Shown: positions 1-8,336 of the stretch, piece by piece
Position numbering within the stretch: position 1 is the first letter of the stretch
Layout of the letters: each line of letters opens with the position of its first letter
Assembly: GCA_002392705.1 (NCBI GenBank)
Contig: DGHP01000192.1
Coordinates: 1 to 8,336, forward strand
Source: Lachnospiraceae bacterium UBA3845
GTDB lineage: Bacteria > Bacillota > Clostridia > Lachnospirales > Lachnospiraceae
Length of the DNA: 8,336 nt
Reading direction: 5' to 3'
Notes under the pieces: generated by a model
Database searches by the model: none
What the model saw: only the letters and a program-made list of their open reading frames with translations
What the model was told of the DNA's origin: nothing
Translations under genes and position numbers: made by a program

Positions 1-2
1 GG

Positions 3-890
3 AACCCCCTGCTGGAGGTGAATCCGGGCGGCGCGCCCTGCAATGTTCTCTCCATGCTGGAAAACTGGGGAGACAGGACAGCTTTTATCGGCAAAGTAGG
101 GGATGATATGTTCGGCCGTCTTCTCACAGAAGCTGTTCAGAGCGTCGGAGTGGATACAAAAGGCCTCTGTGTGGATCCGGCAGTGCATACGACACTTGCT
201 TTTGTCCATACCTATGAAGACGGGGACCGCGATTTTTCTTTCTACAGGAATCCGGGAGCGGATATGATGCTGAAGAAGGAAGAGGTGAATCTGGAACTTT
301 TGAAGGATACCAGGATTTTCCATTTCGGAACCCTCTCCTCCACGCACGAAAAAGTGCGGGAAGCGACCCGTTTCGCCCTGGCTGAGGCAAAGGCGGCCGG
401 GGCCGTGATCTCCTTTGATCCCAATCTGAGAGAACCCCTCTGGGACGACCTCGAGGATGCGAGAAGAGAGATCGACTATGGCCTGAGACATTGCGACGTA
501 CTGAAGATTTCGGACAATGAAGTGGAGTTCATGTGCGGAACGGATGACTATGATAAGGGTGCTGCGCTCCTGAAGGAGAAGTACAATATCCCGCTCATCC
601 TCATCACGCTCGGGAAAAACGGCAGCAGGGCCTACTACAGGGATCTGCGCGTGGACGCGGCTCCTTTCCTGCAGAAGAATACCATCGAGACGACCGGAGC
701 CGGGGATACCTTCTGCGCCACATCTCTTCACTATGTTCTGAAATACGGGATCGACGGCTTCAATGAGGAAAAACTCAGAGAACTCCTTGTTCACGCGAAC
801 GCGGCCGCGTCCCTGATCACAACCCGCAAGGGCGCCCTGAAGGTAATGCCGACGGCGGAGGAAGTGAACGCACTGGCATCGCAGGCCTGA
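3..890 (+). CDS. PfkB-family sugar kinase, probable fructokinase (5' partial)
   Basis: The open frame runs in from the left edge; the codons before the GTG at 18 read N-P-L-L-E-V and continue into NPGGAPCNV. The true start therefore lies roughly 25-30 codons upstream, and the GTG at 18 is not a start. PfkB/ribokinase-fold enzymes phosphorylate a sugar with ATP in the cytoplasm. The GGAPCNV sugar-binding motif and the FYRNPGADMML segment are typical of ScrK-type fructokinases (fructose to fructose-6-phosphate). The PfkB signature TTGAGDTF is encoded at 690-713, and the Asp at 705-707 is the expected catalytic base. The remaining C-terminal part (about 295 residues) is complete and ends in TGA. 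The neighbours give no pathway context. The family is certain; fructose as substrate is an inference from the motifs. Confidence 0.9.
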   Translation, partial: NPLLEVNPGGAPCNVLSMLENWGDRTAFIGKVGDDMFGRLLTEAVQSVGVDTKGLCVDPAVHTTLAFVHTYEDGDRDFSFYRNPGADMMLKKEEVNLELLKDTRIFHFGTLSSTHEKVREATRFALAEAKAAGAVISFDPNLREPLWDDLEDARREIDYGLRHCDVLKISDNEVEFMCGTDDYDKGAALLKEKYNIPLILITLGKNGSRAYYRDLRVDAAPFLQKNTIETTGAGDTFCATSLHYVLKYGIDGFNEEKLRELLVHANAAASLITTRKGALKVMPTAEEVNALASQA

Positions 891-924
891 CGGCGGAAAG
901 GAAAGCGGGACTGAATACGGCGTA

Positions 925-947
925 GAAACCTGCCGCAAGGAGGTTTC
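925..947 (+). other. Hairpin downstream of the sugar kinase
   Basis: GAAACCT (925-931) pairs perfectly with AGGTTTC (941-947) around a 9-base loop, 35 bases after the kinase stop codon. A moderately T-rich stretch (955-963) comes about ten bases later, not directly after the stem. This may be part of a weak transcription end or an mRNA 3'-stabilising hairpin; its function is not determined. Confidence 0.4.
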
Positions 948-972
948 AGACATATACTTTTCTCACTCCTGA

Positions 973-1004
973 TGACAGCCCTGGCCTTTTGGTCAGGGCT
1001 GTCA
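973..1004 (+). terminator. Strong 14-bp hairpin lacking a U-tract, possible terminator
   Basis: Positions 973-986 (TGACAGCCCTGGCC) pair with 991-1004 around a TTTT loop, with a single G-T wobble. The stem is GC-rich and very stable. Neither strand has the T-run expected of an intrinsic terminator directly after it. It lies between the sugar kinase and the lipoprotein gene, so it could separate their transcripts, act as a 3' RNA stabiliser or be a small palindromic repeat. The hairpin is certain; the terminator role is tentative. Confidence 0.4.
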
Positions 1005-1068
1005 CATGAGATGTATACGGAACTTTTTCCTCAGTCGGGACGGGATTGGATATTTCATGGTGTTTGAT

Positions 1069-2424
1069 ATGAAAGCAAGAATGATCAGAATACTCTGCGC
1101 GGCCGCGTTCCTTGCCCTGGGACTGGGCGGCTGCAGCAGGAGCCAGATGAACTACCAGATTGCGGAGGCGATCGGGACTGCCGGCATGTACGAGAATAAT
1201 GAGCCGGTTGAAACGCCGCAGATGGCCGAGAAGCGAAAAGCGCAGGAGGAGTCTGACCGCGCGGAGACGGAGCTGGTATCGGTTCTGGACCGGGCCAGAA
1301 CGCTCGCCCTCGGATATAATTATGAAGACGCGCTGGAGGTCCTTGATACGATCACAGGCCAGCAGTCCCAGGACGAAAGAGTCCTGGCTGCCCGCAGCGA
1401 GTATGAGCAGGGCGGTTCCAGTCTGGAAAAATGGGAGGGCACGATCCCGCATCTGTGCTTCCCCTGCCTGATTGAGGATTCCATGATGGCTTTCGACGGG
1501 GACAGCCTGGCCTATACCTACAGCAACAGCATGGTGACGACCCGCGAGTTTAAGCGGATTCTGCAGAGCCTGTATGACAACCATTATGTCCTGATCGACA
1601 TCCACAGTATCGCCGGACCGGTCACGGACGACAGGGGAACCACGACGGTGGAAACTCTGAATCTGAAGGTTCCGTCAGGCAAAAGGCCGATCATTCTCTC
1701 CCAGGACAACCTTACCTATGAGGACGTCAAAAACGGCGACGGCATAGCCACAAAACTGGTGCTGGATGAGGATGGCAAAGTAAAGGCGAAGTATACGGAC
1801 AGCGGCGGGCATGATCTGGTCGGTGATTACGATTTCATACCGATCCTGGACAGCTTTATCGAAGAGCATCCGGATTTCTCCTATCAGGGAGCGCGCGGAA
1901 TCGTATCGGTATCCGGCGCCCAGGGCGTCTTCGGATATGACCTGCCGGAAACCGGTGCTGCCGACGGAAACAGCGGCGCGCTGACCTCCTCCAGGCTCAC
2001 CGCGGCCGACATGACGCCGGAGCAGAAGGCGGTGGCGGATATCAGCGCCGCACTGAGGGCGGAAGGATGGAACATCGCCAGCGCAGGCTGGTCTCACGGA
2101 TATATGAACAGCATGTCCGCCCAGGAGTTTGTCTCCGAGATCGACAAGTGGATGTCAGGGGTCGGGGTGCTGACAGGGAACGCGGATATCCTCTTTTATC
2201 CCTACGGAGCGGAGGTGTCCTATCCGGGCGACAATCTGGATTACCTGACCGGCCACGGCTTCATCTACCTCTGCGGCCTCTGGGCGGATACCGATTACAG
2301 GGAGGTCACGGATGAATACATGCGCATGACCAGACGTTTCATCGACGGCTATACGCTCCAGAACGCTCCTCATTATTTCACGGATTTCTTTGTTACGGAA
2401 AACGTCCTGGATGAAGACCGGTGA
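1069..2424 (+). CDS. NodB-like polysaccharide deacetylase-family lipoprotein, probably degenerate active site
   Basis: The frame opens at 1006, but that ATG directly abuts a hairpin. The ATG at 1069 is chosen because it gives a clean lipoprotein signal: basic MKARMIR, a hydrophobic core, then lipobox LGGC with Cys22. The ATG at 1057 is also possible, and neither has a strong Shine-Dalgarno. From 1069 the protein is 451 residues. After the signal comes a charged, TPR-like helical region (about residues 35-120), then a NodB-like fold recognisable from LVGDYDFIPILDSFIEEHPDF, GARGIVSVSG, LFYPYGAEV and MRMTRRFIDGY. It is presumably anchored on the outer face of the membrane and acts on, or binds, cell-wall glycan. 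The metal-site motifs are altered: the DD of motif 1 reads D213-N214, and the His-x-x-x-His of motif 2 reads A339-x-x-x-H343. It may therefore bind glycan rather than deacetylate it. The family is fairly sure; activity is uncertain. Confidence 0.8.
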   Translation: MKARMIRILCAAAFLALGLGGCSRSQMNYQIAEAIGTAGMYENNEPVETPQMAEKRKAQEESDRAETELVSVLDRARTLALGYNYEDALEVLDTITGQQSQDERVLAARSEYEQGGSSLEKWEGTIPHLCFPCLIEDSMMAFDGDSLAYTYSNSMVTTREFKRILQSLYDNHYVLIDIHSIAGPVTDDRGTTTVETLNLKVPSGKRPIILSQDNLTYEDVKNGDGIATKLVLDEDGKVKAKYTDSGGHDLVGDYDFIPILDSFIEEHPDFSYQGARGIVSVSGAQGVFGYDLPETGAADGNSGALTSSRLTAADMTPEQKAVADISAALRAEGWNIASAGWSHGYMNSMSAQEFVSEIDKWMSGVGVLTGNADILFYPYGAEVSYPGDNLDYLTGHGFIYLCGLWADTDYREVTDEYMRMTRRFIDGYTLQNAPHYFTDFFVTENVLDEDR

Positions 2425-2435
2425 ACGGATGAAGC

Positions 2436-2495
2436 ACCGGACTTAAAATCCCGTGAGTGGTGACACTCGTACCGGTTCGATCCCGGTCGCCGGCA
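2436..2495 (+). pseudogene. 3' half of tRNA-Leu(UAA), 5' half missing
   Basis: The fragment shows, in order: an anticodon stem-loop with loop CTTAAAA and anticodon TAA at 2444-2446 (stem 2437-2441/2449-2453 with one C-C mismatch); a perfect 5-bp type-II variable arm (GAGTG 2455-2459, CACTC 2464-2468); a perfect T-arm (ACCGG/CCGGT around TTCGATC, 2471-2487); and the acceptor 3' strand CGCCGGC with discriminator A at 2495. The D-arm and a matching 5' acceptor strand (GCCGGCG) are absent. A full tRNA would have to start near 2409, inside the lipoprotein gene. The bases 2416-2441 retain only a vague resemblance to a tRNA-Leu 5' half. This is either a remnant attachment site left by an element integrated at a tRNA-Leu gene or a decayed tRNA copy. 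Confidence 0.82.
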
Positions 2496-2500
2496 ATCGT

Positions 2501-2550
2501 AGAAGCCTCTGAAATGCCTTTAGAATGGATTTTCAGAGGCTTCTTGCATT
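2501..2550 (+). terminator. Terminator-like hairpin after the tRNA-Leu fragment
   Basis: AGAAGCCTCTGAAA (2501-2514) pairs perfectly over 14 bp with 2531-2544, around a 16-base loop. It is followed by TGCATTATTT, a weak T-rich tail. It lies six bases after the tRNA fragment and 76 bases after the lipoprotein stop, so it could end the lipoprotein transcript. It may originally have been the terminator of the tRNA. The following stretch 2551-2642 shows no gene or clear signal. Confidence 0.6.
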
Positions 2551-2642
2551 ATTTCCCGAGCTGAGGAAGCGGCCTTTTCCAGGGGCGGATTTCTCATGAA
2601 AATCGACCATGAAGCGGCAGAAACAGAAGATCTTTTTTTACA

Positions 2643-2672
2643 TTGACTTGCTTTCATGTGCTGTGATATAAT
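2643..2672 (+). promoter_or_regulatory. Sigma-A-type promoter of rpmG-secE-nusG
   Basis: The -35 element is TTGACT (2643-2648) and the -10 element is a perfect TATAAT (2667-2672), with an 18-bp spacer. An extended -10 TG sits at 2664-2665. Transcription should start near 2679, giving a leader of about 100 bases before rpmG. Confidence 0.85.
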
Positions 2673-2690
2673 TTTCGGGCGTATGGAAGC

Positions 2691-2748
2691 GGATCAGAGG
2701 AGACGATCCTCTTTCTGATCCGGAAAACAGTAATAAGCGGCTGTTTTC
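2691..2748 (+). promoter_or_regulatory. Two-hairpin 5' leader of rpmG-secE-nusG
   Basis: Two hairpins lie back to back in the untranslated leader. In the first, GGATCAG (2691-2697) pairs with CTGATCC (2715-2721), with an inner AGGA/TCCT (2698-2701/2707-2710). In the second, GAAAACAG (2723-2730) pairs with CTGTTTTC (2741-2748). They are separated by one base and could stack. There is no T-run after the second, so this is not an ordinary attenuator. Function unknown; it may control translation or mRNA stability of the operon. Confidence 0.55.
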
Positions 2749-2782
2749 TGCGACACTTTAGAAAGAGAGCGAGGTGGAAGTT

Positions 2783-2932
2783 GTGCGTACACGAATCACA
2801 TTGGCATGCACGGAATGCAAACATCGTAACTACAACTTGACGAAAGAGAAGAAAAACCATCCCGAGCGGATGGAAGTTAAAAAGTACTGCCCTTTCTGCA
2901 AGAGACACACAGCACACAAGGAAACAAAGTAA
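2783..2932 (+). CDS. rpmG: 50S ribosomal protein L33
   Basis: A 49-residue protein beginning with GTG. L33 is a small zinc-ribbon protein of the large ribosomal subunit. The two Cys pairs C9-x-x-C12 and C36-x-x-C39 are present, so this is the zinc-binding (C+) form. The sequence [12 protein letters not shown], followed near the end by [11 protein letters not shown], is characteristic. The GTG at 2783 is preferred over the in-frame GTG at 2774 because it matches the family N-terminus and has AGGTGG five bases upstream. It is the first gene of an operon with secE, 32 bases further on, as is standard in Firmicutes. Confidence 0.95.
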
Positions 2933-2964
2933 GCGTCTGATCGATTCGTTTTGAGGTAGGAATT

Positions 2965-3165
2965 ATGGCGAAAGAAGAAGGTTCCAGAGCAAGAACCTGG
3001 TGGGAAGGTGTCAAAGGAGAATTCCGGAAGATTATCTGGCCCAGCCAGGATGATCTTGTGAAGCAGACCACCGTGGTAACAGTGGTATCGATCATTCTCG
3101 GCATAATCATTGCTATCCTGGATTACCTGATCCAGCATGGCATTGACTGGCTGATCAGCTTGTGA
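2965..3165 (+). CDS. secE: Preprotein translocase subunit SecE
   Basis: A 66-residue, single-span SecE, the usual short Gram-positive form. SecE clamps the SecY channel in the SecYEG translocon of the cytoplasmic membrane. An amphipathic cytoplasmic segment (about residues 11-32, including the conserved region FRKIIWPSQDDLVKQT) is followed by one membrane segment at about residues 34-56 (VVTVVSIILGIIIAIL). The Shine-Dalgarno GAGGTAGG lies at 2953-2960. It sits between rpmG and nusG, its near-universal position. Confidence 0.96.
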   Translation: MAKEEGSRARTWWEGVKGEFRKIIWPSQDDLVKQTTVVTVVSIILGIIIAILDYLIQHGIDWLISL

Positions 3166-3202
3166 ACAGTTTCCTTGCACATGCGAAAGACAGGGTGATG
3201 AG

Positions 3203-3799
3203 ATGGCAGAAGCGTACTGGTATGTAGCCCACACTTATTCCGGATATGAGAACAAGGTCAAGGCCAATCTTGAGAAGATGATCAAGAACCGGAACCTGGA
3301 AGAGCAGATCTTCGAGGTACGCGTTCCGGTCCAGGAAGTGGTCGAGATCCGGAAGACGGAAGACGAGGGTACTGAGAAGGTAGAATATACCGAGAGCGGA
3401 GAGCGGAAGCCTCCGAAAAAGAAGAAAGCACCGGTTCAGAAGGTCGTCAAGAAGAAGCTCTTTCCCGGATATGTGTTTGTTCATATGATTATGAACGAAG
3501 ACAACTGGTACCTGGTAAGGAATACCAGGGGAGTGACCGGTTTTGTCGGTTCCGAGCCCACCAGGCCGGTTCCGCTTACCGAGGAGGAGATGCTGAACCT
3601 CGGCGTTCAGGCGCCTGCCGTGGCACCCGGATTCGAGATCGGTGATTCTGTCAGAGTCATTAACAGTGCATGGGTCAACAACCCTGTCGGCGTTATAAGA
3701 GAAATCGATGTGAGTAAGCAGACTGTAAAGATCAGTATTCCGGAATTTATGAACGGTACACCGGTCAGCATGGATTTCACGGACATCACAAAGATTTAA
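3203..3799 (+). CDS. nusG: Transcription termination/antitermination factor NusG
   Basis: A 198-residue NusG, the elongation factor that binds the clamp of RNA polymerase and can couple it to ribosomes or termination. The N-terminal NGN domain begins YWYVAHTYSGYENKVKANLE and resumes with LFPGYVFVHMIMNEDNWYLVRNTRGVTGFVG. Between its two halves (about residues 51-83) lies a highly charged insertion rich in Glu then Lys (KPPKKKK), which makes the protein about 20 residues longer than typical Bacillus NusG. The C-terminal KOW domain starts at FEIGDSVRVIN (about residue 146). Start is ATG at 3203 with AGGGTG at 3192-3197. It is cotranscribed with secE (37-base gap) and followed after 50 bases by rplK. 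Confidence 0.96.
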   Translation: MAEAYWYVAHTYSGYENKVKANLEKMIKNRNLEEQIFEVRVPVQEVVEIRKTEDEGTEKVEYTESGERKPPKKKKAPVQKVVKKKLFPGYVFVHMIMNEDNWYLVRNTRGVTGFVGSEPTRPVPLTEEEMLNLGVQAPAVAPGFEIGDSVRVINSAWVNNPVGVIREIDVSKQTVKISIPEFMNGTPVSMDFTDITKI

Positions 3800-3807
3800 T
3801 CACTTTA

Positions 3808-3834
3808 GTGGGAGGGACTCCCCGCTAATACCAC
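3808..3834 (+). promoter_or_regulatory. Probable ribosomal protein L1 binding site upstream of rplK
   Basis: The spacer folds as an outer helix GTGG (3808-3811)/CCAC (3831-3834), an asymmetric internal loop GA / GCTAATA, and an inner helix GGG (3814-3816)/CCC (3821-3823) with loop ACTC. The strands GTGGGAG and ATACCAC match the sequence I recall for the L1-binding stalk of 23S rRNA. The outer helix ends next to the Shine-Dalgarno AAGGAGG (3835-3841), so bound L1 should block initiation at rplK. This is the classical L11-L1 autoregulation logic; binding itself is inferred. Confidence 0.75.
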
Positions 3835-3849
3835 AAGGAGGTTTATATT

Positions 3850-4275
3850 ATGGCAAAGAAAGTTACAGGATATATCAAACTGCAGATCCCGGCAGGCAAG
3901 GCTACTCCTGCTCCGCCGGTCGGCCCGGCGCTCGGACAGCATGGCGTCAATATCGTGCAGTTCACGAAGGAGTTCAATGCGAGAACCGCTGATAAGGGTG
4001 ACCTGATCATCCCGGTCGTTATCACAGTTTATGCCGACCGCAGCTTCAGCTTCATCACCAAGACTCCGCCGGCTCCGGTACTTCTGAAAAAAGCCTGCAA
4101 TCTGAAGACTGCATCCGGTACCCCGAACAAGGTTAAGGTTGCCACCATTTCCAAGGACAAAGTACGCGAGATCGCTGAGACAAAGATGCCGGATCTGAAC
4201 GCAGGATCCATCGAGGCAGCTATGAGCATGATCGCAGGAACAGCCCGGAGCATGGGGATTGTAGTCGAGGATTGA
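3850..4275 (+). CDS. rplK: 50S ribosomal protein L11
   Basis: A 141-residue L11, exactly the usual length. L11 forms the GTPase-associated centre with the 23S rRNA 1070 region and is the target area of thiostrepton. The N-terminal domain has the proline-rich stretch [19 protein letters not shown] (about residues 20-38), containing the prolines tied to thiostrepton sensitivity. The C-terminal RNA-binding domain includes [15 protein letters not shown] and ends SMGIVVED. The Shine-Dalgarno AAGGAGG lies 8 bases before the ATG. It is followed after 48 bases by rplA, and a second L1-site-like hairpin lies in that gap. Confidence 0.98.
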
Positions 4276-4282
4276 CACTTAA

Positions 4283-4310
4283 GTGGGAGGGTAGATCCCG
4301 CGAACACCAC
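4283..4310 (+). promoter_or_regulatory. Second probable L1 binding site, upstream of rplA
   Basis: The architecture matches the site before rplK: GTGG (4283-4286)/CCAC (4307-4310), internal loop GA / GCGAACA, inner helix GGG (4289-4291)/CCC (4297-4299), loop TAGAT. It starts 7 bases after the rplK stop and ends one base before AGGAGG (4312-4317) of rplA. The flanking bases CACTTWAGTGGGAGGG are also shared with the first copy. It probably lets L1 repress its own translation directly. Inference from structure and similarity to the 23S L1 stalk. Confidence 0.7.
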
Positions 4311-4323
4311 CAGGAGGTAAAAA

Positions 4324-5016
4324 ATGAAAAGAGGAAAGAAATACGCAGAAGCTGCGAAGCAGTTCGAGCGTTCCCAGCTTTATGAAGTAAGTGATGCAGT
4401 GAGTCTTGTAAAGAAGGTTGCTGTTGCCAAATTTGATGAGACCATCGAAGTTCATATCAGAACCGGCTGCGACGGACGTCATGCAGATCAGCAGATCCGC
4501 GGCGCTGTCGTACTTCCCCACGGCACAGGCAAGACCGTCCGTGTTCTCGTGTTCGCAAAGAACCTGAAGGCGGATGAGGCACAGGCTGCCGGTGCGGATT
4601 ATGTCGGAGCTGAGGAACTGATTCCGAAGATCCAGAATGAAGGATGGCTGGATTTTGATGTTGTAGTCGCTACCCCGGATATGATGGGCGTTGTCGGACG
4701 TCTGGGCCGTGTCCTCGGACCCAAGGGCCTGATGCCGAACCCGAAGGCCGGCACCGTGACCATGGATGTCACCAAGGCGATCAACGATATCAAAGCCGGT
4801 AAGATCGAGTACAGACTGGACAAGTCAAATATCATTCATGTGCCAATCGGAAAAGCTTCTTTCACAGAAGAACAGTTAACGGACAACTTCCAGACGCTTA
4901 TGGATGCGATCGTTAAGGCAAGACCGGCGGCGCTCAAGGGCCAGTTCCTCAAGAGCGTAGTCATGGCTCCGACCATGGGCCCGGGCGTGAAGCTCAACCC
5001 TGTCAAGTTCGGCTGA
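4324..5016 (+). CDS. rplA: 50S ribosomal protein L1
   Basis: A 230-residue L1, typical length. L1 forms the mobile stalk next to the ribosomal E site and moves deacylated tRNA; it also represses its own mRNA in many bacteria. Recognisable parts are the basic N-terminus [13 protein letters not shown], the domain II segment [13 protein letters not shown], the L1 signature around [19 protein letters not shown], and the C-terminal [17 protein letters not shown]. The start ATG lies 6 bases after AGGAGG. It is the last gene before the terminator at 5049, so rpmG-secE-nusG-rplK-rplA probably form one transcript. Confidence 0.98.
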
Positions 5017-5048
5017 TTCTCCGGTCAGTAAGATTTGTCGCATTTCAG

Positions 5049-5077
5049 AGGACCTGCGCTTTGCGCAGGTCCTTTTT
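5049..5077 (+). terminator. Intrinsic terminator of the rplKA transcript
   Basis: AGGACCTGCG (5049-5058) pairs perfectly with CGCAGGTCCT (5064-5073) around CTTTG, followed by a T-run to 5077. It lies 32 bases after the rplA stop and separates L11-L1 from L10-L7/L12. Confidence 0.93.
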
Positions 5078-5113
5078 ATCTGATTAAAGACGGCTTCCGC
5101 TTCCCTTGCCCCT

Positions 5114-5181
5114 GCGCGTCAAAGACAGGCTTTCTTTTTCTGCAGGCACGACGAGCCGGAACACGATTTTAAACAGGCCGT
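5114..5181 (+). repeat. Diverged repeat copy A (upstream of rplJ)
   Basis: Positions 5141-5181 align without gaps to 5209-5249 of copy B, with 31 of 41 bases identical; both begin TGCAGGCACGACGA. The stretch 5114-5140 resembles the left arm of copy B weakly (AAAGACAGG..TTTCTT), and no clean inverted arm remains. A and B therefore lie in tandem. Nothing else is seen in 5078-5113. Confidence 0.55.
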
Positions 5182-5255
5182 ATTTGAAATCAGAACCTGT
5201 TTCTTACATGCAGGCACGACGAACCAGAATCTGATTTCAAAATTGTCGTGAATAG
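5182..5255 (+). repeat. Inverted-arm repeat copy B, upstream of the rplJ promoter
   Basis: TTTGAAATCAGA (5183-5194) pairs with TCTGATTTCAAA (5230-5241), a perfect 12-bp inverted repeat around a 35-base loop. The whole 74-bp unit, including the loop (CACGACGAACCAGAA) and the right flank GTGAATAG, recurs at 6648-6718 with a few changes and a short gap. It ends about 33 bp before the -35 box of the rplJ promoter. It could be a small palindromic mobile element or a protein-binding site; which is unknown. Confidence 0.85.
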
Positions 5256-5287
5256 TAACCGTGAATGAAAACATTTTAAGAAGGTGC

Positions 5288-5316
5288 TTGACAAGCTTTG
5301 TCCGGGGTGGTATCTT
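5288..5316 (+). promoter_or_regulatory. Promoter of rplJ-rplL
   Basis: A perfect -35 TTGACA (5288-5293) and a -10 TATCTT (5311-5316) are separated by 17 bp. Predicted start near 5323 gives a leader of about 170 bases, consistent with the L10 leader that follows. Confidence 0.75.
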
Positions 5317-5322
5317 AGCGAA

Positions 5323-5446
5323 GATGACTGCCGAAGACAGCAGGTTCCCTGATGGGTACAATGGAAGGCTTGCCGACCGCCTGCCGAGGAAGTATGAATT
5401 CTTTCAGGATTTTTACGCCTCTCTGTTCTGGCAGAGGGGCTTTTCT
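5323..5446 (+). ncRNA. L10 leader (ribosomal protein autoregulatory RNA)
   Basis: The leader carries the elements known from L10 leaders: AGACAGCAGG (5336-5344 region) and CCTGCCGAGG (5380-5389), which close a stem (GCAGG 5340-5344 / CCTGC 5380-5384), and then an intrinsic terminator at 5417-5446. In Firmicutes the L10-(L12)4 complex binds this RNA and favours early termination of rplJL transcription. The fold was read by eye; the exact inner helices are not resolved. Confidence 0.8.
5417..5446 (+). terminator. Attenuator terminator of the L10 leader
   Basis: GCCTCTCTG (5417-5425) pairs with CAGAGGGGC (5432-5440) over 9 bp with one wobble, loop TTCTGG, followed by TTTTCT. It lies 50 bases before rplJ, so it must be read through for expression; it is the output of the L10 leader switch. 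Confidence 0.85.
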
Positions 5447-5449
5447 ATG

Positions 5450-5492
5450 TTTCAGAAGCGGTCATTACCAAAATCTGAAAAGGAGGTAATGG
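5450..5492 (+). promoter_or_regulatory. Candidate H-type pseudoknot covering the rplJ Shine-Dalgarno
   Basis: TTTCAGA (5450-5456) pairs perfectly with TCTGAAA (5474-5480). CATTACC (5463-5469), in the loop of that stem, pairs perfectly with GGTAATG (5485-5491) downstream. The second helix consumes the last two bases of AGGAGG (5481-5486), and the first abuts it. If formed, this would limit ribosome access to rplJ. Prediction only. Confidence 0.4.
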
Positions 5493-5495
5493 TTC

Positions 5496-6002
5496 ATGGC
5501 AAAAGTGGAACTCAAGAGACCCATCGTTGAAGAGATCGCCGAGAATGTCAAGGGAGCGGATTCCGTCATCCTGGTGAACTATCTTGGTATCAATGTGGCC
5601 GGTGACACGGCTCTGCGCAAGGAACTGCGTGAAGCAGGCGTTGTCTACAAGGTTTACAAGAATACCATGATGAACTTCGCGTTCAAGGGTACAGATTATG
5701 AGCCGCTGTGCGAGCATCTTGAGGGAGCGAACGCAATCGCGATCTCCAAAGACGACGCAACAGCCGGTGCGCGCATCATTAAGAAACACCTGAAGGCGAA
5801 CCCGACAATCAAGATGATGGCGGGTATCGTTGAAGGCAAGTATTATGATGAAAAAGCTGTAGAGATGCTGGCGGATATCCCGTCCAGAGAAGTCCTTCTC
5901 GGCAGACTGTTCGGTTCGATGCAGTCCCCGGTTGCGAACTTCGCACGTGTCATCAAGCAGATCGCCGAGAAAGACGGCGGAGAGGCTCAGGTCGAGGCCT
6001 GA
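5496..6002 (+). CDS. rplJ: 50S ribosomal protein L10
   Basis: A 168-residue L10, which anchors the L7/L12 dimers at the base of the ribosomal stalk. Its N-terminal rRNA-binding domain starts MAKVELKRPIVEEIAE and includes LRKELREAGVVYKVYKNT. The C-terminal helical tail (about residues 130-168, LLGRLFGSMQSPVANFARVI) holds the L7/L12-binding region. The start ATG at 5496 is 9 bases after AGGAGG. An in-frame or nearby ATG at 5489 is not used because the family begins MAKVE. It is followed after 33 bases by rplL, the usual partner. Confidence 0.97.
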   Translation: MAKVELKRPIVEEIAENVKGADSVILVNYLGINVAGDTALRKELREAGVVYKVYKNTMMNFAFKGTDYEPLCEHLEGANAIAISKDDATAGARIIKKHLKANPTIKMMAGIVEGKYYDEKAVEMLADIPSREVLLGRLFGSMQSPVANFARVIKQIAEKDGGEAQVEA

Positions 6003-6035
6003 TCACGATTATAATCATATACGGAGGATATTATT

Positions 6036-6407
6036 ATGGCAAAACTTACTACTGCCGAGTTTATCGAAGCGATCAAGGAACTCAGCGTTATGGAACTGAA
6101 TGACCTCGTAAAGGCCTGCGAAGAAGAGTTTGGTGTCTCCGCAGCAGCGGGCGTAGTTGTTGCAGGTCCGGCAGCAGCTGAAGAAGTTGAAGAGAAGACC
6201 GAGTTCGATGTTGAGCTGACTGAGATCGGCCCGAACAAGGTTAAGGTTATCAAGGTTGTCCGTGAGGCTACCGGTCTTGGCCTGAAGGAAGCGAAGGATC
6301 TGGTTGATTCCGCTCCGAAGATGGTCAAGGAGCAGGTCTCCAAGGCTGAGGCTGATGATCTCAAGGCTAAGCTGGAAGAGCAGGGCGCGAAGGTTACCCT
6401 TAAGTAA
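6036..6407 (+). CDS. rplL: 50S ribosomal protein L7/L12
   Basis: A 123-residue L7/L12, the flexible stalk protein that recruits translational GTPases. The N-terminal dimerisation region is about residues 1-33; the Ala/Val/Glu-rich hinge is about 35-53 ([19 protein letters not shown]). The C-terminal globular domain starts [20 protein letters not shown] and ends GAKVTLK. The Shine-Dalgarno GGAGG (6023-6027) is 8 bases before the ATG. The 33-base gap from rplJ contains the small palindrome GATTATAATC (6007-6016) and no terminator, so both genes are co-expressed. The many-fold excess of L12 over L10 must come from translation. Confidence 0.98.
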
Positions 6408-6437
6408 TCCAGACTCGTCATCAGAATATAAGGACAG

Positions 6438-6470
6438 GCTCCGGAAGAGTTTTCTTCCGGAGCTTTTTTT
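6438..6470 (+). terminator. Intrinsic terminator after rplL
   Basis: GCTCCGGAAGA (6438-6448) pairs perfectly with TCTTCCGGAGC (6453-6463), loop GTTT, followed by seven T residues. This strong terminator separates rplJL from rpoB. Confidence 0.95.
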
Positions 6471-6485
6471 GGCTTTTTCGCTATC

Positions 6486-6716
6486 ATTCACGGCTCTCCA
6501 CACATCAGGCCACCCGCATATTCCACTTGGCAGCTTTGCTGCTTAGTGGAATAGCGTACAGAGTAGACCATCCGTGCTTCGCACGTCTGCCGCATCTTCG
6601 ATGCTTCTGTCGGAGGCTATGTGTGGAGTTCCTGCTTCGCAGGCCTAATTTGAAATCAGAACCTGTTTCTCCTGCATGCACGACGAACCAGAATCTGATT
6701 TCAAATGGCCGTGAAT
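6486..6716. mobile_element. Compact multi-branched palindromic element (MITE-like or structured RNA)
   Basis: This 231-bp stretch between the rplL terminator and the rpoB promoter is almost fully accounted for by nested helices. The ends are ATTCACGGC (6486-6494)/GCCGTGAAT (6708-6716). Inside lie CTCCACACAT (6496-6505)/ATGTGTGGAG (6619-6628), a 14-of-15-bp hairpin (6520-6552, arms ATTCCACT/AGTGGAAT and GGCAGC/GCTGCT, loop TTT), and three 5-bp hairpins with TTC loops (6573-6585, 6592-6604, 6631-6643). Last comes the 13-bp arm repeat (6648-6660/6694-6706). Gaps between helices of the main junction are only 1-4 bases. It has no convincing protein. Terminal inverted ends suggest a non-autonomous mobile element; the fold would also suit a structured RNA. 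No clear target-site duplication is seen. Confidence 0.6.
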
Positions 6717-6718
6717 AG
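6648..6718 (+). repeat. Inverted-arm repeat copy C, upstream of the rpoB promoter
   Basis: ATTTGAAATCAGA (6648-6660) pairs with TCTGATTTCAAAT (6694-6706) over 13 bp, with a 33-base loop containing CACGACGAACCAGAA. It matches copy B (5182-5255) almost throughout, loop included, apart from a few changes and a 3-base net gap. It forms the last branch of the larger structured element and ends about 22 bp before the rpoB -35 box. Confidence 0.88.
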
Positions 6719-6740
6719 GAACTTTTGTTTCAAAAAACAT

Positions 6741-6769
6741 TTGACAGAAGGCCGCCGGAGTAGTATGAT
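6741..6769 (+). promoter_or_regulatory. Sigma-A-type promoter of rpoB
   Basis: A perfect -35 TTGACA (6741-6746) and a -10 TATGAT (6764-6769) are separated by 17 bp. The start is expected near 6776, giving a leader of about 90 bases. That leader contains the small hairpin CCATGA (6787-6792)/TCATGG (6798-6803). With the terminator at 6438, this gives rpoB independent transcription. Confidence 0.88.
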
Positions 6770-6865
6770 GTACGTTGCATTATTGTCCATGAGTCTGTCA
6801 TGGGGGTTAGTGCGCCCTTAAAGCGAGTTTATTGACGACTGCAGAAAGACAGAGGTGAAACGTTA

Positions 6866-8336
6866 ATGGAAAAAAACAGAATTCGCCCGGTTAAAACAGG
6901 CAGAAGCCTCCGTATGAGCTTCCAGCGTCAGGCGGAAGTCCTCGGGATGCCCAACCTGATTGAGGTTCAGAAGGCATCTTACAAATGGTTCACGGAGGAA
7001 GGCCTGAAGGAAGCATTCGCGGATATATCACCGATCGAGGACTATGGCGGAAAGCTCAGCCTCGAATTTGTGGATTTCAAGGTGGCCGAGGATGACGTGA
7101 AGTACACGATTGAGCAGTGTGCGGAGCGCGATGCTACCTACGCAGCTCCCCTGAACGTGCGTGTGAGACTCCATAACAAAGAGAATGATGAGATCAGCGA
7201 ACACAAGATCTTCATGGGAGATCTGCCGCTGATGACCGAGAACGGCACATTTGTCATCAACGGTGCCGAGCGTGTTATCGTCAGCCAGCTGGTCCGTTCA
7301 CCGGGCATCTATTACGGTATCACCCACGACAAGATCGGAAAGAAGCTGTATTCCTGCACCGTCATTCCCAACAGAGGAGCCTGGCTTGAGTATGAGACAG
7401 ACTCTAATGATGTTTTTTACGTCCGGGTTGACCGTACCAGAAAGGTGCCGGTCACAGTGCTGGTCCGCGCTCTCGGAGTAGGCACCAACCAGGAGATCAT
7501 CGACCTGTTCGGAGATGAGCCCAAGGTGGCCGCGACTCTGGCAAAGGACGAGGCTACGGATTATGAGTCCGGCCTGAAGGAACTGTACAAGAAGATCCGT
7601 CCGGGAGAGCCTGTTGCGGTGGAGAGCGCGGAGACGCTCATCACCGGCATGTTCTTTGACCCGAGGCGTTATGACCTGGCAAGAGTCGGCCGTTATAAAT
7701 ATAATAAGAAGCTTCAGCTGCGCAACCGTATCGCGGGACATACCCTCGCGGAGGACGTGGTGGATGAGAGTACAGGTGAGATCCTGGCCGAGGCCGGCAC
7801 CAACGTCACGAAGGAACTGGCGGACGAGATCCAGAACGCCGCTGTTCCCTATGTAATCGTTGAGACGGATGGCCATAATGTGAAGGTCCTCTCCAGCATG
7901 ATGGTTGACCTGACCCACTGGGTGGAGTGCGATCCGGAGAGTCTCGGCATCACGGAGATGGTTTACTATCCCGTCCTGAGAGAACTCATGGATGAGAATC
8001 CGCTCCACGAGGATCTGCTGGAGGCGATCAGGCTTCATGCCCATGACCTCGTTCCCAAGCATATCACAAAGGAAGATATTCTCGCGTCCATCAACTACAA
8101 CATGCATCTGGAGTACGGGATCGGCAATGACGATGACATCGACCATCTCGGCAACCGCCGGATCCGTGCCGTGGGCGAACTGCTCCAGAATCAGTACAGA
8201 ATCGGTCTGAGCCGTCTGGAGCGCGTTGTGCGCGAGCGTATGACGACCCAGGAGCCGGAGGGCATCACCCCGCAGTCCCTGATCAATATCAAGCCGGTTA
8301 CTGCCGCGGTGAAGGAGTTCTTCGGATCCTCCCAGC
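6866..8336 (+). CDS. rpoB: DNA-directed RNA polymerase subunit beta (3' partial)
   Basis: The first 490 codons of the beta subunit, open to the right edge. The N-terminus [19 protein letters not shown] and [20 protein letters not shown] are typical. [15 protein letters not shown] marks the N-terminal rifampicin-cluster area, and [19 protein letters not shown] leads to the conserved core. The window stops at KEFFGSSQ, the very start of the main rifampicin-resistance region (the last Gln corresponds to E. coli Q510), so resistance positions cannot be read. The start ATG has GAGGTG 8 bases upstream. rpoC is expected to follow outside the window. No frameshift was seen in the reading. Confidence 0.98.

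Follow-up and report, generated by a model that had tools for sequence, protein, structure and literature searches.

The 243 bp element that lies between rplL and rpoB in Lachnospiraceae bacterium UBA3845 very probably belongs to a dispersed, gene-less MITE family of the Lachnospiraceae whose movement likely depends on IS66-family transposases supplied in trans and whose fold would act as folded DNA. High copy number, inverted ends, 8 bp target duplications, likeness to the IS66 family and covariation without clear strand bias were observed. The element was analysed in a stretch of 8,336 nucleotides (contig DGHP01000192.1, positions 1 to 8,336; referred to as the window), the open reading frames of which were read as rpmG, secE, nusG, rplK, rplA, rplJ, rplL and the beginning of rpoB.

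Structure of the element between rplL and rpoB

The initial annotation had placed the element between the terminator of rplL and the promoter of rpoB, and this was borne out: the element (6480-6722) is flanked by a terminator hairpin of rplL (6438-6463) and a TTGACA/TATGAT promoter (6741-6746 and 6764-6769), both identified by eye. Its extent had been given as 231 bp (6486-6716). This core was retained and the ends were revised outwards by six bases each, because the terminal inverted repeats of the family reach 15 bp and are degenerate in the window copy. Over the full 243 bp the covariance model was matched from position 1 to 195 of 195 (167.6 bits, E 1.3e-39). The 5′ terminal inverted repeat GCTATCATTCACGGC (6480-6494) has three mismatches against GTTACTATTCACGGC, and the 3′ terminal inverted repeat GCCGTGAATAGGAAC (6708-6722) has one.

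The minimum-free-energy fold of 6470-6730 contained all of the pairings proposed earlier, namely the nine-base inverted ends (ATTCACGGC, 6486-6494; GCCGTGAAT, 6708-6716), a helix within them that itself bears three hairpins, a small fourth hairpin, and the hairpin with 13 bp arms. Its energy was −111.1 kcal/mol, compared with −70.6 ± 4.9 kcal/mol for shuffled sequences (z −8.2; none of 200 shuffles was as good). The 5′ arm of the outer stem (CTCCACACA, 6496-6504) was paired in the fold with the 3′ arm (TGTGTGGAG, 6620-6628), which is also marked by covariation; both-side changes were found at 8 of the 10 pairs of this stem (helix 2) among 35 copies. Inside the stem lie an optional hairpin, M1 (6515-6556), seen in the fold and absent from the 195 bp copies, and the module M2 (6566-6614), which contains two short hairpins at about 6573-6585 and 6592-6604. 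M2 and the following hairpin M3 (CCTGCTTCGCAGG, 6631-6643) were supported by both fold and covariation. The long hairpin M4 (6648-6706) closes the series, and all 13 pairs of its outer helix were changed on both sides in each of the 15-, 35- and 30-copy alignments.

No convincing gene was found in the element, as had been noted initially: the overlapping frames (58-80 aa) looked spurious by eye, and two long antisense frames of rplL also extend into it. As in other MITEs, a transposase gene of its own is absent from the 243 bp. The G+C content is 0.51, so the element is not AT-rich; AT-richness is named as typical of MITEs in part of a published account (PMC3049150), and was not taken as essential.

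Elsewhere in the window, the ribosomal protein L10 leader (RF00557) was located at 5313-5455 with 56.3 bits, which exceeds its cut-off. The segment 2416-2494 gave a weak match to the tRNA-Sec model (26.8 bits; cut-off 47), and no tRNA was found in the window by ARAGORN; this segment looks like a tRNA gene in its 3′ portion and is perhaps an old attachment site.

Copies, target duplications and remnants

Many other copies were found in the host and its relatives, as the initial annotation had anticipated for a mobile element. BLAST searching with the 231 bp stretch gave matches in 11 of 41 genomes, 27 of them in the host and 31 in the congener G010. The end GTTACTATTCACGGC, with up to two mismatches, occurred 171 times in the host (87 + 84) versus 6 times (3 + 3) for a reversed-pattern control, and 35 + 30 times in G010 versus 1 + 1. 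With up to one mismatch it was present in 12 of the 19 genomes of the genus; some of these had one to four matches, which may be due to chance because the controls reach one. A covariance model based on 15 copies was matched at 77 places in the host and at 11, 1, 2, 7, 42, 36, 46 and 7 places in eight congeners (42 in G010, 36 in G012 and 46 in G015), with up to 150 candidates scored per genome; these nine genomes had been picked because copies had already been seen there. In a sample of the Lachnospiraceae, with up to 8 candidates scored per genome, the model was matched in 48 of 299 genomes and 48 of 298 genera. A thin sample of the Clostridia gave matches in 3 of 391 genomes, including the host, all three from the Lachnospiraceae; weak relatives elsewhere in the Clostridia could be missed at this depth, because 6 candidates were scored per genome under strict filters. 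Plasmids and phages searched with one 195 bp copy gave no match, and no obvious transposase of an autonomous copy was seen when the frames at 94 unpaired-end sites were read by eye.

Copies of the element carry inverted ends of the GTTACTATTCAC... type. For the analysis of target duplications, 66 end pairs were found, and those of up to 330 bp were kept. L072 (which looks coding) and L003, L005, L015 and L020 (wrong or distant partner) were left out by hand; L005, L015 and L020 were brought back with other ends as L313, L321 and L329. Addition of 38 model matches and removal of flank duplicates gave 88 copies, 87 of them with usable flanks. When the flanks were compared at a lag of 8, 16 of these 87 copies matched at 8/8 bases and 12 more at 7/8, versus a single perfect match, at lag 7, for lags 5, 6, 7, 9, 10 and 11 in the same copies. 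Among 45 model matches taken at the exact ends of the model, a set that overlaps with the 87, 15 had 7 or 8 of 8 bases in common, and 20 further copies from other genera included 9 at 8/8 and 2 at 7/8. Copies with inverted ends thus match at lag 8, with the other lags at background, and the family therefore inserts with an 8 bp duplication. The flanks of the window copy match at only 4/8 bases; this copy is old or altered.

Comparison of rplL-rpoB spacers gave the presence and absence proposed earlier, in a form without a precise empty site: two of the 11 congener loci with both genes carry the element, those of the host and its near relative G010. The two spacer copies (6480-6722 in the window; L042:995-1237) are both 243 bp long, belong to different subfamilies and are 72.5% identical, and their 3′ and 5′ flanks are 95.5% and 77% identical, respectively; the subfamily mismatch may stem from gene conversion or from a repeated insertion. 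At another orthologous pair (L128:501-695 and L157:501-695), differences were counted at 4 of 195 positions of the element, without any compensation, and at 25 of 300 and 28 of 302 positions of its two flanks. In this one case, selection on the resident copy, or conversion, could account for the lower divergence of the element. In several congeners (L293, L294 and L295) the rplL-rpoB spacer exceeds 1 kb and contains a gene, which reads by eye like an N-acetylmuramoyl-L-alanine amidase.

A second hairpin of the family, at about 5182, had been taken as a sign that parts of the element move independently. This was not supported. The M4 hairpin at 5183-5241 is followed by the 3′ terminal repeat of the family (5245-5259, one mismatch), and the hairpin is therefore a 3′ remnant of a second copy (5183-5259) rather than a free-moving part. 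The model was matched here with E 3.4e-12, the left part of the match (from 5027 on) being not credible as it enters the rplA terminator region. The remnant sits upstream of the L10 leader and rplJ. Some of the short forms look like internal deletions, seemingly between the AGGCC/GGCC repeats that border the modules: the joint CATCAGGCC|GTGAA was found at five places, and loss of M3 and M4 at TCTGAGGCC|GTGAA at three. At one site with matching right flanks, the host has a copy of the long form, which includes an assembly gap, and in G010 a remnant of 42 bp is left (L038 and L150). A pattern-based count of the 95 bp form was discarded, as the pattern also matches normal 3′ ends.

Conservation of the fold

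Compensatory changes, the absence of which in relatives had been named, together with a lack of other copies, as grounds for giving up the interpretation, were found in three alignments. In 15 chosen copies (A1), 39 of 96 pairs were changed on both sides and 92.2% of the cells were paired, a level reached by none of 500 shuffles; when the partners were slid, pairing fell to 30-37%. In 35 copies from the genus (A2), 62 of 78 pairs were changed on both sides with 91.4% pairing (0/500 shuffles), and in 30 copies from 27 genomes and 20 genera (A3; mean identity 59%), 72 of 78 pairs with 92.8% pairing (0/500 shuffles). A2 and A3 consist of model matches aligned by fitting to the model, and therefore lean toward its structure. 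Whole arms were replaced in some copies (M4 in L042, L128 and L004; the M2 hairpins in L053), and the branch layout, bulges, hairpin loops and loop letters were kept in place across the 20 genera.

A functional RNA is usually proven by covariation. RNA tolerates G.U pairs but not A.C, and a transcribed strand should therefore carry an excess of G.T over A.C; the ratio was 46:15 cells in a set of 74 distinct hairpins, terminator-like in form, that lie downstream of rplL. In the element, the distinct column states were balanced, with 32:35 in A3 and 38:41 in A2. The raw cells gave 73:50 in A3 and 120:73 in A2, an excess that comes partly from columns in which G.T is the commonest state. The orientation of the copies was analysed against genes defined as simple reading frames. 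There were 500 bases on both sides of 78 of the 88 copies, 8 of which had no gene on one side; of the remaining 70 copies, 45 lie between co-directional genes, 22 of them with and 23 against the direction of transcription. Taken together, the balanced states and the even orientation speak, though not decisively, against an RNA specific to one strand and in favour of folded DNA. Selection, if any, may be read as acting on the folded DNA or on either strand, and the fold probably serves in the DNA and not in an RNA.

Two other explanations of the covariation were weighed against this. If a structured RNA (of the small, leader or trailer kind) were carried on the mobile element and the fold were selected in the transcript, the strength of the covariation and the conserved loop letters would be expected, the raw excess of G.T would agree with it, and the site between transcription units is one where read-through could transcribe either strand. 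The balance of distinct states, so different from that of the terminators, and the even orientation speak against such an RNA, as does the fact that the window element fits no Rfam family (in cmscan runs on the window, the element and seven loci, no match to the element exceeded the threshold); we regard this explanation as improbable. Alternatively, the fold might have no function, template switching or gene conversion between its arms maintaining their likeness and the paired changes arising as a mutational by-product. Balanced G.T and A.C states would follow from correction of one arm by the other, and so would wholesale arm replacement of the kind found in M4. Layout, bulges and loops are nevertheless stable over 20 genera at the 59% mean identity of A3, and the bulges count against arm correction because this process alone should remove them, which leaves a functionless fold unlikely, though not negligible.

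IS66-family elements and known systems

IS66-family insertion sequences of the Lachnospiraceae resemble the element in two respects: their ends are of the type GTTACNRTTCAC (N, any base; L269, L379, L384 and L383), and target duplications of 8/8 were found on three of them (L269, L379 and L384). They are unlike it in being about 2 kb long with a transposase gene. The element was classified as an IS66-type MITE because its inverted ends and 8 bp duplications are of the same kind as those on the IS66-family elements of relatives; movement by an IS66-family enzyme would fit these ends and this duplication length. The MITE-like reading favoured in the initial annotation was thereby strengthened, on the evidence of the many copies, the compensatory changes, the presence and absence in spacers, the 8 bp duplications and the IS66-type ends.

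Proteins with the IS66 domain (PF03050) were found in 6 of the 19 genomes of the genus. In the host, the genome of which is 84% complete, none was found by PF03050 or by protein query; the lack of a transposase in the same genome bears on present mobility and not on descent. L171 (= L378) has GTTACTGTTCACACC at both ends, with one mismatch in twelve at each. L269 has GTTACTATTCACAGT at both ends, with 12/12 end letters, and a second end-like sequence, GTTACGATTCA, past its 3′ end, from which its 8/8 duplication TTCGAGCC was counted; its open frame matches positions 223-282 of PF03050 only and looks internally deleted. A wider search, for which the L171 protein served as query, yielded 34 matches, distributed over 29 of 299 genomes. 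Among 30 loci from this search, L379 and L384 combine paired ends with 8/8 duplications; in L381, L383 and L385 the ends are paired and the duplication is not clear, L378 is without a flank, and the remaining loci are without a convincing pair. Others of the paired-end elements have 10-11 of the 12 end letters. A stop codon interrupts the matched stretch in both L379 and L384, and the proteins of L171, L381 and L383 score above the cut-off for PF03050 and below that for the NCBIfam IS66 model NF033517.

The MITE might instead be moved by an enzyme from a different transposase family with 8 bp duplications. The host without an IS66 match would be in keeping with this, and the families covered were IS66, IS256 and ISL3, not IS6 or IS1595. 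IS256 (PF00872) and ISL3 (PF01610) were each found in 3 of the 19 genomes of the genus and not in the host, and were rejected as their loci are without such paired ends; these findings, together with the complete agreement of the end letters of L269 at both ends and the perfect duplications on three IS66-family elements, make a mover from another family very unlikely. Against the preferred explanation, a MITE mobilised by IS66-family transposases, stand the host without an IS66 match, the poorly matching flanks of the window copy, the excess of G.T over A.C in raw cells, the G+C content, the low divergence of the element relative to its flanks in the pair L128 and L157, and the genomes G359 and G085, where an IS66 element occurs alongside copies but the ends of the two differ in detail.

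Under this explanation, an IS66-family transposase would recognise ends of the GTTACTATTCAC type and insert the element. The interior fold would form either by extrusion from one strand, in replication or in a transposition intermediate, or as a cruciform; this may help copying, and lineages of well-folded source copies would then spread. Resident copies would afterwards decay, or drop hairpins when the short AGGCC/GGCC repeats around the modules recombine out the stretch between them by deletion.

In the open-access literature, so far as its text was accessible, no published description of the element was found. In layout and behaviour only, it is like the BOX (boxA-boxB-boxC), RUP and SPRITE elements of pneumococcus, which are likewise short, multi-copy, modular, gene-less and extensively folded; these differ in being streptococcal. 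They are seen as non-autonomous mobile parasites with predicted secondary structure, and RUP is tied to IS630-Spn1 and BOX more weakly to ISSpn2, with neither tied to IS66 in the relevant part of that account (PMC3049150). MITEPsy1 of Pseudomonas syringae is also short and gene-less with inverted ends; its transposition has been demonstrated, and according to sections of the published report it differs in its length of 100 bp, its 4 bp duplication and its ends, which are like those of ISPsy2 (PMC3189936).

A further likeness is to the Clostridiales-1 RNA (RF01699), which shares with the element many copies in the Lachnospiraceae, several hairpins inside paired ends, target duplications and an inner hairpin similar to CGUGCUUGCACG in L044. 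It differs in its ends (GATGCCAGGGTCAA) and in making 7 bp instead of 8 bp duplications. Membership of the element in RF01699 was rejected: L044, its best-scoring copy, reached 31.1 bits with a cut-off of 48, and window positions 6470-6730 gave no match. In relatives, RF01699 was found in 48 of 116 at E ≤ 0.001, with 39 above the cut-off. The end pattern used fitted 21 of 40 loci (L270-L289, L358-L377) and missed 19 (a narrower pattern gave 9). Among these 21 copies with recognised ends, 12 had perfect duplications at 7 bp and 3 more matched at 6/7, compared with three perfect matches at lag 8, one at lag 5 and none at lags 4, 6, 9 and 10. Clostridiales-1 has been classed as a probable RNA that is not cis-regulatory, in a published table (PMC2864571). 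The duplications suggest that it may be mobile DNA too, of a family distinct from that of the window element.

MITEs are already known, and the surprising part is the strong covariation without clear strand bias. We put forward only tentatively, as a possibility on which we would not yet rely, that there is a class of fold-dependent DNA transposons, IS66-type miniatures in which a multi-branched single-strand fold is a working part and is conserved throughout a bacterial family as strictly as in an RNA, and that Clostridiales-1, instead of being an RNA gene, is likewise mobile DNA of this kind. A conserved fold alone is not proof of an RNA gene, as the covarying element described here has target duplications and IS66-type ends. 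If this holds, RNA discovery would need a test of mobility and a test of strand, and a step dependent on folding, open to assay, would be added to what IS66-type elements do. The family may also feed regulatory change, as some genomes carry dozens of copies and one adjoins rplL and rpoB.
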